64,000 nt of DNA, taken from contig JAUIGV010000001.1 in the NCBI GenBank assembly GCA_030432565.1, positions 186,001 to 250,000 of the forward strand. The letters run 5' to 3'. This DNA comes from Verrucomicrobiia bacterium. Its GTDB lineage: Bacteria; Verrucomicrobiota; Verrucomicrobiia; Verrucomicrobiales; Akkermansiaceae. Of the stretch, positions 19,352 to 57,118 are shown piece by piece (the stretch's first letter is position 1; every line of letters starts with the position of its first letter). Position numbers and translations under genes: made by a program. The notes under the pieces are model-generated. The model made no database searches. It was not told the DNA's origin and saw only the letters and a program-made list of their open reading frames with translations.

Positions 19352-20512
19352 GTGAATATCTTGAATCGAATTGTTCTTTTTGGTGCAGGAATGGTGGGTG
19401 CGACCTTTGCCGATGAGTCGGTGATTCGGGAAATTCTGCCTTCAAAAGAGGAGTCGGCATGGCTGGAAATCGATTGGAAAACGGATCTTTGGGAGGCGCG
19501 GAAGGAAGCGGCTCAAAGTGGTAAACCGATTTATCTTTGGGAGATGGACGGGCATCCGCTCGGATGCGTCTGAAACAACGGAGTGGCCGACAGGTTGTTG
19601 GTCTTTGCAAACGAGGAAGTGCAAGAACTCCTGAAGGAAAAGTTCGTCCCGGTGGCTGCGGATGACTGGTATCAGCGGCGGCGAAAGGACAGGGTTGGCG
19701 AGTTCTTTGCGAAAGTGGTCGATCAGAGTCCAAGGAAAGGGAATCACACCAAGCAGGGGCACTATGTTTTTACCGCAACCGGAAAACTGCTAGGGTTCAA
19801 TAATAACAGGGGGCCTGAGAGGCGGTTGAAGATGATGAGGGATGCGCTCACTGCGTGGGAGGAGCTCCCCGTAAGCGAGAGGACGATGGTGGTTCCCGCA
19901 CCTGGAAAGAATGACGAGGGATTTCATCGTGAACTTCCGGAAGGCGGGCAAATCGTGAAGGTTTTCACGCGCTGCCTGGAGGAAAGAGAAGGTCGCTTGC
20001 AAAAGCTGTCGGCGGAAAAAATTGGAAACCTTTCCGCAGTGGATCACTTGTGGTTGCGCAAGGAAGAGATCATGAAACTGGAAGGACTGATCGAATCGGG
20101 AGGGGGGGAGATTTCAAAAGACCTTTCGCTGCGAATCGCAAGATTTCATCTTCGGGACAATACGAGGGGGGAGCCGCGCGACTGGAAGAAAGACGAAGTT
20201 CGTGGATGTTCCTTAAAGGTTGATGGAAGGGGGATTGTGACGGGCAACTTCTTGATTGAGTCCGGCGATGGAAAGATGGGATATCAGGGAAAGATTGAGG
20301 GCGTGATTGCGGTGAAGGAAGGGCGGTTGACGAAGTTTGACACCCTGGTGATTGGTGATCACTGGGGACACAGCCGATACACCGGAGGGGCGAGACCGGG
20401 GCGGAATCCGATGGGGCAGGTTTTTCGACTCTCAGAGGGCAAAAAAGAAAGTGACCGAATTCCGCCCCAGGCGATCCGTTGGGCACCCGGATATTGGGAG
20501 CCGGAGAAGTGA
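19352..20512 (+). CDS. Candidate selenoprotein: secreted thioredoxin-like protein (Sec at codon 74)
   Basis: The gene is read through an in-frame TGA at 19571-19573, giving 386 residues with selenocysteine at position 74. It starts at GTG 19352 with a signal peptide (about 1-20). A thioredoxin-like domain follows ('AQSGKPIYLWEMDG', then G-C-V-U-N-N-G) and continues in the same frame with 'EEVQELLKEKFVPVAADDW' and 'GHYVFTATGKLLG', the expected helix and strands. The C-terminal 180 residues form a second domain I do not recognise. Codons after the TGA are clearly coding and stay in frame to 20512. A hairpin 11 bases after the TGA fits a bacterial SECIS. Without Sec decoding the product would stop at 73 residues, so a nonsense pseudogene is the alternative. 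Confidence 0.75.
19585..19603 (+). promoter_or_regulatory. Putative bacterial SECIS hairpin, selenoprotein 1
   Basis: Starting 11 bases after the TGA, GGCCGAC pairs with GTTGGTC (7 bp, two of them G-U) around a 5-base loop AGGTT with G at loop position 2. The known E. coli fdhF element also begins about 11 bases after its UGA and has G residues in the loop. The hairpin lies within the coding sequence, as bacterial SECIS elements do. Pairing was found by eye; folding energy was not computed. Confidence 0.65.
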
Positions 20513-20535: not shown

Positions 20536-21111
20536 TTAAAAAAGGACTCCGATGGCGGATCCTTCTTTGAAAAGGATCTGGTGTGATCTCTTCGCGAGAA
20601 ATTTCGGGAAGGGATCGAGAGGTTCGTTGACCAGGATAATATCGCCCTGATGCTCGTCCATGAAGGCATTCATGGCATGATAGGTGTCGTCATTATAGAC
20701 GAGGAAGCTTGCGATGATGAGATCGACTTCGGGAAGGTCAAGTTGTTCGTAACGGCCGGCCAATGAGGTGAAATTTTGAATGTCATTCCAGGCAAGTTGC
20801 TCCCGGCAGAGGGCAAGGGCGGTGGGGGAGAGGTCATTGATCCAAATGTGCCTGGCATGACGGCCCAGGATGAGGGTTTCAGCTCCGACACCGGCTCCGA
20901 GGATCAAGACGCGTTTGTCTTTGAAGAGTTCGATGTTTTTGGACAACCAGCCGGTGAGGACTTCGGTGATGTCCCAGCGGACGTCGTAGTAGACTTCCAC
21001 CCCGGAGCTCATTTCGTCCATGATTTCTTTCTCCACCCGTGGGTGGGTGAGATCCATCAGAGCAAAGGTTTCTTGCCCGATGGTGAAGGGTTGAAAGAGG
21101 GAAGAGGGCAT
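20536..21111 (-). CDS. Class I SAM-dependent methyltransferase (METTL21/Nnt1-like)
   Basis: This 191-residue cytoplasmic methyltransferase has motif I 'VLILGAGVGAETLILG', a motif II-type acidic 'INDLSPTAL' and 'PEVDLIIASFLVYND' near the position of the catalytic or post-I motifs. The arrangement resembles lysine or nicotinamide N-methyltransferases of the METTL21/Nnt1 group. The start at 21111 (ATG, before 'PSSLFQPF') is supported by the paralogous remnant at 22915-23061, which begins to align at the same Ser-Leu-Phe. It converges on the selenoprotein gene with 23 bases between stops. The substrate is unknown. Confidence 0.75.
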   Translation of the reverse strand: MPSSLFQPFTIGQETFALMDLTHPRVEKEIMDEMSSGVEVYYDVRWDITEVLTGWLSKNIELFKDKRVLILGAGVGAETLILGRHARHIWINDLSPTALALCREQLAWNDIQNFTSLAGRYEQLDLPEVDLIIASFLVYNDDTYHAMNAFMDEHQGDIILVNEPLDPFPKFLAKRSHQILFKEGSAIGVLF

Positions 21112-21307
21112 ACTGGAACGGGAGGAGAGTGGATGTTGTGGTTGGGGAATGCAAGGGTGGGGCGAGAAAATGAGCGCATGGGCAAAGATGATTTCAGTGG
21201 CGACATTCTGCCTGATTTGAAAATGGAAGATTGAACCTGTTCGCTGAAGGGGCGGTTCCGTCGATCCGCCTTGCGTTTTTCCGGGCGCACCTGAGACTGC
21301 GCGGGCC

Positions 21308-22903
21308 ATGGTTGAACTTCAGGTAATCCAAACCTCGGGGATTGAGGTGATGATCCGCAATGTTGTCGAGTCTGACATCCCGGGGATGATCGCGCTCCAT
21401 CGGCGGTGCTTTCCGGCCATGATGGAGTCGGATGAAGCGTGGCGCGAGGATCAGCTTTTGAGTCATCTTGAGGTTTTTCCCGAAGGGCAGGTGGTGCTGG
21501 AAGTGGAGGGGCAGGTGGTGGCGGTTGCTTCCAGCCTGATCGTCGATCTTGGTCAAAATCCACTCCGCCATCACACCTACTATGGAGTGACGGACGATGG
21601 TTATTTTTACAACCACGACCCGGAGGGCGACACCCTTTACGGGGCTGATGTTTATGTTGATCCAGCGTTTCAGGGAAAGGGGCTCGGGAGGCTGCTTTAC
21701 CAGGTGCGGCGGGACTTATGCCGCCGCCTGAATCTGCGTCGGATTCTCGGAGGGGGACGTCTATGGCGGTATTCCGAGTATGTCGATCTCCTGACTCCGC
21801 AGGAATATGTCGCGCAGGTGAAAGAGGGCGAAATCGCTGATCCGGTGCTTGGGTTCCAGCTGCGGGAGGGTTTTGTGGTGCGGGGAATCATGAAGAATTA
21901 CATTCGCGATCCCAAGAGCTGCAATCATGCTTCTTTGATCGAGTGGCTGAATCCCGACTACCAGGTCGACCCTGATGAGGAGCGCAATGTCAGGGTGGCC
22001 TGTGTGCAGTATCAGATGCGACGGATCGCTGATTTTGATGAGTTCGCGGCGCAAGTTCGCTATTTTGCGGAAACGGCCGGGGAAGACTACGGGGCCGAGT
22101 TTGTTGTGTTCCCTGAATTTCTTTCGGTCCAGTTACTTTCCGCGCTTGAGCCGATGGGATCGCGCGAGGGGATTCGCAAGCTATCCGGGTTTACCGGGCA
22201 ATTTGTTGAGTTGATGGCATCGCTGGCCAAGGAGCAGGGGCTTTACCTGATTGCGGGATCACATCCGGTGGCCCAGGAGGATGGTTCCCTTCACAACGTT
22301 GCCATGATTTTTCGCCCCGATGGATCCTATGTGAGTCAGCCCAAGTTGCACATCACCCCGAGCGAGCGGACCTGGTGGGGCATCACCGGGGGGGATTCCT
22401 TGATCGTGGTGCAAACTCCAAAAGCCAGGATCGGGGTTCTCATTTGTTACGACGTGGAGTTTCCCGAAGCGGCAAGGTATCTTGCTGACCAGGGGGTTGA
22501 AATTCTGATTGTGCCTTATTGCACCGACAACCGTCAGGGCTATCTACGGGTCAATACTTGCGCGGCGGCGCGGGCGATTGAAAACCAGATTTATGTCGCA
22601 ACGGCTGGCGTGGTGGGAAACCTTCCCGACGTTCCAGCGATGGATATTCACTACGGGCGGGCTGCGGTTTACACTCCGTCGGACTTTGAGTTTGCACGGG
22701 ATGGAATTCAGGCCGAAGCCGACCCCAACATTGAGACCCTGCTGGTGACCGATTTGAATATTTCGGATCTTTACCGCTCGCGCGCAAGTGGTTCGGTGAC
22801 GCCAATGAATGATCGTCGCCACGATCTTTTTGAGTTCGTGAGCCATCTGCACAGCGAATATCAATCGCCCGGCGTGCAGGAATCGACAACCTCCGAAGAG
22901 TAA
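21308..22903 (+). CDS. GNAT acetyltransferase fused to nitrilase-family amidohydrolase
   Basis: This 531-residue protein has two domains. An N-terminal GNAT domain spans about 13-210 with the acetyl-CoA motif 'VDPAFQGKGLGRLL' (117-130). A C-terminal carbon-nitrogen hydrolase domain spans about 225-510 with the full catalytic triad: Glu270 ('VFPEF'), Lys346 ('QPKLHIT') and Cys380 ('LICYDVEFPE'). The fusion is a known bacterial architecture thought to act on amide- or amine-containing metabolites. There is no signal peptide, so it is cytoplasmic. It is divergent from the methyltransferase gene with 196 bases between. The substrate is unknown. Confidence 0.9.
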   Translation: MVELQVIQTSGIEVMIRNVVESDIPGMIALHRRCFPAMMESDEAWREDQLLSHLEVFPEGQVVLEVEGQVVAVASSLIVDLGQNPLRHHTYYGVTDDGYFYNHDPEGDTLYGADVYVDPAFQGKGLGRLLYQVRRDLCRRLNLRRILGGGRLWRYSEYVDLLTPQEYVAQVKEGEIADPVLGFQLREGFVVRGIMKNYIRDPKSCNHASLIEWLNPDYQVDPDEERNVRVACVQYQMRRIADFDEFAAQVRYFAETAGEDYGAEFVVFPEFLSVQLLSALEPMGSREGIRKLSGFTGQFVELMASLAKEQGLYLIAGSHPVAQEDGSLHNVAMIFRPDGSYVSQPKLHITPSERTWWGITGGDSLIVVQTPKARIGVLICYDVEFPEAARYLADQGVEILIVPYCTDNRQGYLRVNTCAAARAIENQIYVATAGVVGNLPDVPAMDIHYGRAAVYTPSDFEFARDGIQAEADPNIETLLVTDLNISDLYRSRASGSVTPMNDRRHDLFEFVSHLHSEYQSPGVQESTTSEE

Positions 22904-55768: not shown

Positions 55769-57118
55769 TTATCCGACGAGTTCGCTCATGGGCGCGTATT
55801 GGGAGTCGACAAGGAAGCGGGGTCGGCCGGACAGGTCATCGATGGTGGTGCGTCGGGCGTCGATGCCAAGGTTGTGGTAGAGCGTGGAAAAGACCTCCTG
55901 GAATTCGACGGGCCGGTCGTCGGCTTCGCCGCCGTCGCGGGTGGTGGATCCGATGACCTGGCCATGATTCATGCCGCCGCCGGCGAGCAAGGCGGTGGAG
56001 ACTTTGGGCCAATGATCGCGACCGCCCTGGGCATTGATTTTGGGAGTGCGGCCGAATTCGCCCCAGACGACGACCGAGACGTCATCTGAGAGACCGCGGT
56101 CGTGGAGGTCCTGAACGAGGGCGGTGATGCCTTGGTCGAGAAGAGGGAAGTCGGTGCGGGCGCGGCCAAAGTTGTTGCCATGCCAGTCCCAGCGGGAAAA
56201 GCCGAGAGTGACACAGCGGGCGCCGGCTTCGACGAGGCGGCGCGCCATGAGGAATTGATCGAGCCGTTTCCAGGGGCCGTCGGCGGTGAGTTTCTCGGTG
56301 CCTTTGCCGTAACGTTCGACGATTTTGGGATCTTCCTTGGAGAGGTCGAAAGCTTCGGCGAGGCGGGAGGAAGTCAGGACGCCGAAGGCTTGTTCGGTGA
56401 AGGTGTCCATTCCGGCCATGGATCCGGAGGCATCGACGTCGCGGCGGAAGGTATCGAAGGACCTGAGGAGGGCCTTGCGGTCGGCGAGTCGTTCGATGGA
56501 GATGTCCTTGAGGATCATGTCATCTTTGCCACCGCCGCGGAAAGGGGCGAAGGCGGCGTGCGAGGGTCCGAGGAAGCCGGGTTTACCGGGGTCACCCCAT
56601 TGGTCGTGTCCGCATTTGGGGGACAGTCCGAGGAAGGACGGGACGCCGGGGGTGACCTGTCCCTGGAGTTTGGACAGGACGGAGCCGATGGAGGGCCAAC
56701 CTCCGGGAGGCTGGGGGCCCTGGGGTTTGCGGCCGGTGAGGCATTGAACGGCATCGTGTCCGCCTCCGGCACCGACCATGGAGCGAATGACCGAAAACTT
56801 GTCCATCATGCGGGCCATTTTCGGGAAGAGTTCGCCGATCTGGATTCCCGGGACGTTGGTGGAGATGGGGTTAAATTCACCGCGAATGCCGGAGGGAGCT
56901 TCCGTTTTGATGTCCCACATGTCCTGGTGCGGAGGGCCACCGGCGAGGAAGATCATGATGACTGCCTTGTGATCGAGCTTTTTGGGGGAGGAGGCTTCGG
57001 CTTGCAGAAGCTGGGGGAGGGAGGCGCCGCCGAGGCCGAGGCCGCCAATGCGAAGGAAACCCCGGCGGGTCATACCGTCGCAGAAGGTTTCACCTTTGGA
57101 TCCTGAAATTGTGAGCAT
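55769..57118 (-). CDS. DUF1501 family secreted protein
   Basis: This 449-residue protein has a Tat-type signal ('[19 protein letters not shown]' from residue 16). The DUF1501 fold (alkaline phosphatase/sulfatase superfamily) follows, with '[20 protein letters not shown]', '[17 protein letters not shown]' and '[20 protein letters not shown]'. It lacks the sulfatase C-x-P-x-R signature, as is usual for DUF1501. It heads the four-gene operon running to 49000. The enzymatic activity of the family is not established. Confidence 0.9.

Follow-up and report, generated by a model that had tools for sequence, protein, structure and literature searches.

Does the TGA codon within this gene end translation, or does it specify selenocysteine (Sec)? 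The window, by which we mean the whole 64,000-nucleotide stretch analyzed here, comes from a Verrucomicrobiia genome of 5.93 Mb that is 97% complete. It contains a frame that opens with GTG, reaches a TGA after 73 codons, and continues in phase for 312 more codons with zero further stops until a terminal TGA (Table 1). The residues that flank the internal TGA read GHPLGC-V-U-NNG. An earlier sequence-only reading had described this arrangement, which agrees with the sequence in every element, and had proposed a secreted thioredoxin-like selenoprotein. The explanation preferred here, an intact gene with Sec at codon 74 that encodes an exported redox enzyme, has as a whole a probability of about 0.92.

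Table 1. Features of the candidate selenoprotein gene (positions in the window).
Feature	Positions	Strand	Remarks
Complete predicted selenoprotein gene	19352-20512	+	GTG start; 386 residues including Sec74; one internal TGA in frame; TGA terminator
Probable signal peptide	19352-19411	+	VNILNRIVLFGAGMVGATFA; cleavage at about residue 20; recognized by eye; N-terminus of the model of low confidence
Thioredoxin-like domain, residues 35-175	19454-19876	+	AlphaFold2 model; VIA-align match to 3f9u
Cys72 codon, putative Sec partner in C-x-U	19565-19567	+	Cys at U-2 in 95 of 99 distinct motifs
TGA predicted to be read as selenocysteine 74	19571-19573	+	TGA in 98 and Cys in 1 of 99 distinct relatives; Sec machinery in the genome
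SECIS-like hairpin	19585-19603	+	Starts 11 bases 3' of the TGA; fold and covariation
C-terminal beta-rich domain, residues 190-386	19919-20509	+	Conserved DNTRGEP motif; separate model
Terminal TGA, normal stop	20510-20512	+	Same stop in a 97%-identical relative (L021)

A single sequence is insufficient to settle the question. In a crude codon-usage score of the window, the internal TGA falls outside the top 20; the same scan lists a candidate TGA at 56087. The hairpin downstream of the codon forms when folded singly, but its stability is unexceptional (z -0.4 to -1.6). Because neither the lone fold nor the codon usage is remarkable, the case for Sec rests on comparison, and it is decided by the retention of the TGA among relatives, the covariation of the hairpin, and dN/dS values well under 1 for both parts of the gene.

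Relatives of the protein are numerous and almost uniform at the site. Within the same order, matches were found in 41 of 189 genomes, and nearly all of those that span the site have exactly one internal stop, a TGA, at the same codon. A scan of a species-level genome collection returned about 300 related stretches, the best 80 of which all belong to Verrucomicrobiota or Planctomycetota. A phylum-wide draw around the source genome added few members, whereas the Planctomycetota draw added many; in the latter phylum, 103 of 392 sampled genomes have matches, and the site-spanning ones again carry one TGA with few exceptions. Relatives align from residue 1 onward and contain one TGA apiece. Once duplicates were removed and a recognizable motif was required, 99 distinct relatives from the two phyla could be compared at the equivalent of codon 74, where 98 have TGA and a single one has Cys, the two states that the sequence-only reading had advised looking for in homologues. 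The TGA recurs in relatives down to about 27-40% identity.

These comparisons bear directly on the possibility that the TGA is a true stop or a sequencing error, leaving two broken ORFs or a pseudogene. The downstream piece, 309 residues beginning with GTG at 19583, does appear as an ordinary ORF in the ORF list, and standard annotation would split the gene there. However, a broken gene would have to carry the same TGA in 98 distinct relatives, across genera and two phyla, and to retain a conserved hairpin, while the window gene has no other disabling change. Selection speaks against it as well: in comparisons with relatives of 97% and about 68-76% protein identity, the computable dN/dS values span 0.04-0.17 for the part 5' of the TGA and 0.05-0.21 for the part 3' of it; synonymous sites were saturated in two of the comparisons. 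Such low values on both sides indicate that both halves are under purifying selection as protein. A broken gene is thus highly improbable.

The source genome possesses the complete machinery for Sec incorporation, with selA, selB, selC, and selD all present. It encodes a tRNA-Sec with the anticodon UCA (54.4 bits; gathering score 47), SelB (315.6 bits; cut-off 242), SelA (489 bits), and SelD (387 bits). SelD is itself of the TGA (Sec) form, with the motif SCGGUASK (L054:1501-2430, contig C73 of the same genome), and is a built-in positive control for Sec decoding in this organism. The association extends to the relatives. Each of the 41 genomes of the order in which the family occurs encodes SelB or SelA. 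SelB at E <1e-60 occurs in 35 of these 41 genomes compared to 18 of the 148 others in the order (Fisher p 8.7e-19, a value that overstates independence, as the genomes are those of related species), and the six family genomes below this SelB threshold all have SelA. Full SelA was found in nine of ten TGA-bearing genomes tested; the tenth (L098, genome G535) has no SelA match in its assembly, possibly or even probably owing to assembly incompleteness. The sole Cys form (L118; GHPLGSACGNG) belongs to a Gemmataceae MAG in which SelA-like matches are weak and sub-threshold only.

Reading of the TGA by near-cognate suppression, or its reassignment to an ordinary amino acid in this lineage, would keep the frame open equally well. 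Nevertheless, the gene and its close relative both end in TGA, so the codon still stops translation and has undergone no general reassignment. The strong co-occurrence with SelB and the confinement of the Cys form to a genome without a convincing selA likewise favor Sec, and suppression or reassignment can be assigned only a minimal probability.

Further support for Sec comes from the RNA. The SECIS of E. coli fdhF is a hairpin located shortly 3' of the UGA, with a G in its apical loop. At the level of this general description, the window hairpin is similar, as it also lies just 3' of the UGA and presents an apical-loop G. It consists of a 7-bp stem (GGCCGAC/GTTGGTC) closed by the loop AGGTT (AGGUU in the RNA; 19592-19596), as the sequence-only reading had it, and its position is where a bacterial SECIS is expected. 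The loop G, the second loop base, falls in an invariant Arg codon, and its conservation is not independent evidence because that codon forces it. An Rfam scan of the window returned zero matches.

Covariation was assessed in 94 distinct sequences that have the TGA and gap-free downstream bases. The four stem pairs nearest the loop are formed in 91, 91, 91, and 92 of these; the fifth forms in 87, and the two outermost form in 63 and 54. Among pairs that join two third codon bases, the one between columns 17 and 29 (counting the T of TGA as 0) is C-G in 46 sequences and G-C in 36, and takes the forms U-A and A-U as well; the one between columns 20 and 26 is C-G in 89 sequences and U-A in 2. When the partners are shifted by 1 to 6 columns, pairing falls from 86% to 33-57%. 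On average, 6.05 pairs form per sequence, as opposed to 4.22 under a gene-wide synonymous codon null and 5.45 (sd 0.08; maximum 5.68 in 200 runs) under the strictest null, in which sequences exchange codons only at matching sites where they share the amino acid and relatedness is not modelled. A set of 22 sequences gave 94% of cells paired, with changes on both sides in six of seven pairs, but it was hand-picked for diversity after the folds had been seen, and the unselected count of 94 is the fair one. Judged from these alignments, the hairpin is conserved by compensatory changes beyond those that synonymous codon shuffles produce. The gene accordingly shows the marks of a selenoprotein gene: TGA/Cys conservation at the site, the four sel genes in the genome, and a SECIS-type hairpin with an apical G. 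With TGA conservation, machinery, RNA covariation, and purifying selection all read from sequence, the TGA is almost certainly decoded as Sec, as had been proposed.

Variation around the site reveals which part of the motif is fixed. In the four distinct motifs that lack Cys at the second residue before U, it lies three or four residues before U or is missing; Cys72 is missing or shifted, for example, in L048, L138, and a paralogue in the source genome. Since this Cys varies in 4 of 99 motifs, the fixed feature is Sec rather than the Cys, and a C-x-U mechanism is not universal in the family. The paralogue (L052:7442-9109, contig C34) is a second predicted selenoprotein of the family with the motif GHPCGETUNNG. 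It carries about 200 additional residues at the N-terminus and lacks a Cys at U-2. Multiple family copies per genome, some adjacent and each with its own TGA, also occur elsewhere (L092; contig C42 of genome G583).

Homologues with neither Cys nor Sec, together with disabling mutations, had been named in advance as evidence against Sec. Near relatives provide none. A few distant Planctomycetota paralogues do replace the residue: eight full-length, stop-free sequences (L184-L191) have Ser (six), Asp (one), or Pro (one) at the Sec site, in a motif so altered that the exact residue alignment is less certain. Three genomes with such paralogues (G651, G702, and G711) have TGA copies too, on the same contig in G651 and G702. 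Because these few distant paralogues carry Ser, Asp, or Pro, part of the family seems to work without Sec or Cys. According to PMC12013277, every selenoprotein known so far appears to have homologues with Cys, whereas the Cys form is extremely rare in this family. A tentative and rather doubtful suggestion is that the family is nearly Sec-only, performing a chemistry not readily done by Cys, and that loss of Sec tends to lead instead to Ser, Asp, or Pro and to loss of the motif, yielding non-redox paralogues.

The predicted architecture is that of a two-domain protein behind a signal peptide. An AlphaFold2 model of the full protein (mean pLDDT 86.8, pTM 0.86) contains a thioredoxin-like domain, whose fold is recognized by comparison of the predicted model with solved structures. 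VIA-align matches this domain to 3f9u (Z 13.8; 1.9 A over 110 residues), 1sen (Z 12.7), and DsbD C-terminal domains (Z 9), with 29 chains at Z >=8. In addition, weak, sub-threshold Pfam matches agree with the thioredoxin-like assignment made originally. The model places Sec74 immediately before helix 75-83, the usual place of the first Cys of CxxC, unlike the profile alignment, which places it at the second Cys of the canonical CxxC. The C-terminal domain, folded separately, is also modelled well (pLDDT 84.8, pTM 0.84). It has no Pfam match above cut-off and no clear match in Foldseek and VIA-align searches of the PDB (best Z 5.3), which does not by itself establish a new fold; a PDB sequence search with the family profile returned nothing usable. 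Regarding secretion, the hydrophobic N-terminus recurs in relatives L058, L062, L063, and L065, in line with the original claim, while export is a step that we infer, along with the presence of Sec in the protein and its chemistry.

On this basis, a mechanism can be proposed. SelB and Sec-tRNA-Sec would bind the mRNA hairpin 11 bases past the UGA, allowing insertion of Sec at codon 74 in place of termination. The full 386-residue protein would then be exported via its signal peptide. In its thioredoxin-like domain, Sec74 and the Cys72 that precedes it by two residues may form a selenol/thiol redox center, which would probably act through a selenenyl-sulfide to reduce an oxidized substrate (a peroxide, a disulfide, or another), and the C-terminal beta-rich domain would probably position the substrate or a partner. 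Fold, motif, and signal peptide make a secreted selenol/thiol redox enzyme the likely function. Sec could instead be a binding site for a metal or metalloid (for example, mercury, copper, or arsenic) rather than serve thiol or peroxide redox chemistry. In favor of this, the inventory in PMC13188914 includes some families related to metals or mercury, strict conservation of Cys72 is lacking, and the family has no redox partner gene as a regular neighbor. However, redox domains such as DsbD-C and the AGR/ERp18 proteins have closely similar folds, 95 of 99 motifs place C-x-U directly before the active-site helix, and no metal-resistance cluster recurs nearby, making metal binding an unlikely role, albeit one with an appreciable chance. 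Across the family, gene neighborhoods show no conserved neighbor and only near-relative synteny with an ABC-F ATPase gene. This gene adjoins the selenoprotein gene in relatives; in the window, a methyltransferase gene (20536-21309) and a gene for a GNAT acetyltransferase-carbon-nitrogen hydrolase fusion (21308-22903) lie between them.

How does this protein relate to known selenoproteins? None of the models in the June 2026 release of NCBIfam reaches its cut-off, and none of the 119 families listed in PMC13188914 is recognizable as this one by domain or motif. The family motif strings are also absent from the literature searched. Thus, this appears to be a new, undescribed selenoprotein family that is large and spans two phyla, although absence from NCBIfam, PMC13188914, and the literature searched is no proof of absence elsewhere.

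The closest likeness is to the VPGUxxT selenoproteins (NF041382/NF041383, hypothetical protein OS_HP5), which share the thioredoxin-like character and the location of Sec in the active-site loop. Residues 39-103 align profile to profile with these proteins, weakly but plausibly (hhalign probability 85, E 5.8e-6), suggesting that the two families are distantly related. Several differences separate them. The VPGUxxT cut-offs are missed by far (12.4 vs 350 bits and 12.5 vs 275 bits), the VPGUxxT motif test is negative, with G-C-x-U-NNG (GHPLGCVUNNG) here in contrast to VPG-U, and the alignment sets Sec74 three residues past the VPGUxxT Sec and does not include the C-terminal domain. The source genome also encodes a short VPGU selenoprotein candidate (L153; contig C41:220441-220854, minus strand) with the motif FQEVPGUGGC, a signal-peptide-like start, and a TAG end, which is shorter than the NF041383 model. 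Among Pfam families, the best relatives are Thioredoxin_7 (PF13899) and Thioredox_DsbH (PF03190), which share the thioredoxin-like fold; the best family members reach E 0.0003 and 0.001 to them, respectively, and the window protein misses the PF13899 gathering score (17.8 vs 27 bits). Trx7/PDZ (NF041199) and Sec.1 (PF13192) are thioredoxin-like selenoproteins too. Sec.1 is listed with C-x-U spacing, as here, and Trx7/PDZ with C-x-x-U, unlike here (PMC13188914); scans against NCBIfam and Pfam gave no match to NF041199 or PF13192.

The family is probably annotated at present as broken or hypothetical genes, and the covarying SECIS model could be used to find further genes of this kind. If the nearly Sec-only reading is true, search methods that depend on Cys/TGA pairs would tend to miss the family altogether. 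More broadly, the family would enlarge the known set of bacterial selenoproteins in two phyla from the environment whose selenium biology has been little explored, and would offer a near-Sec-only test case for the use of selenium versus sulfur.
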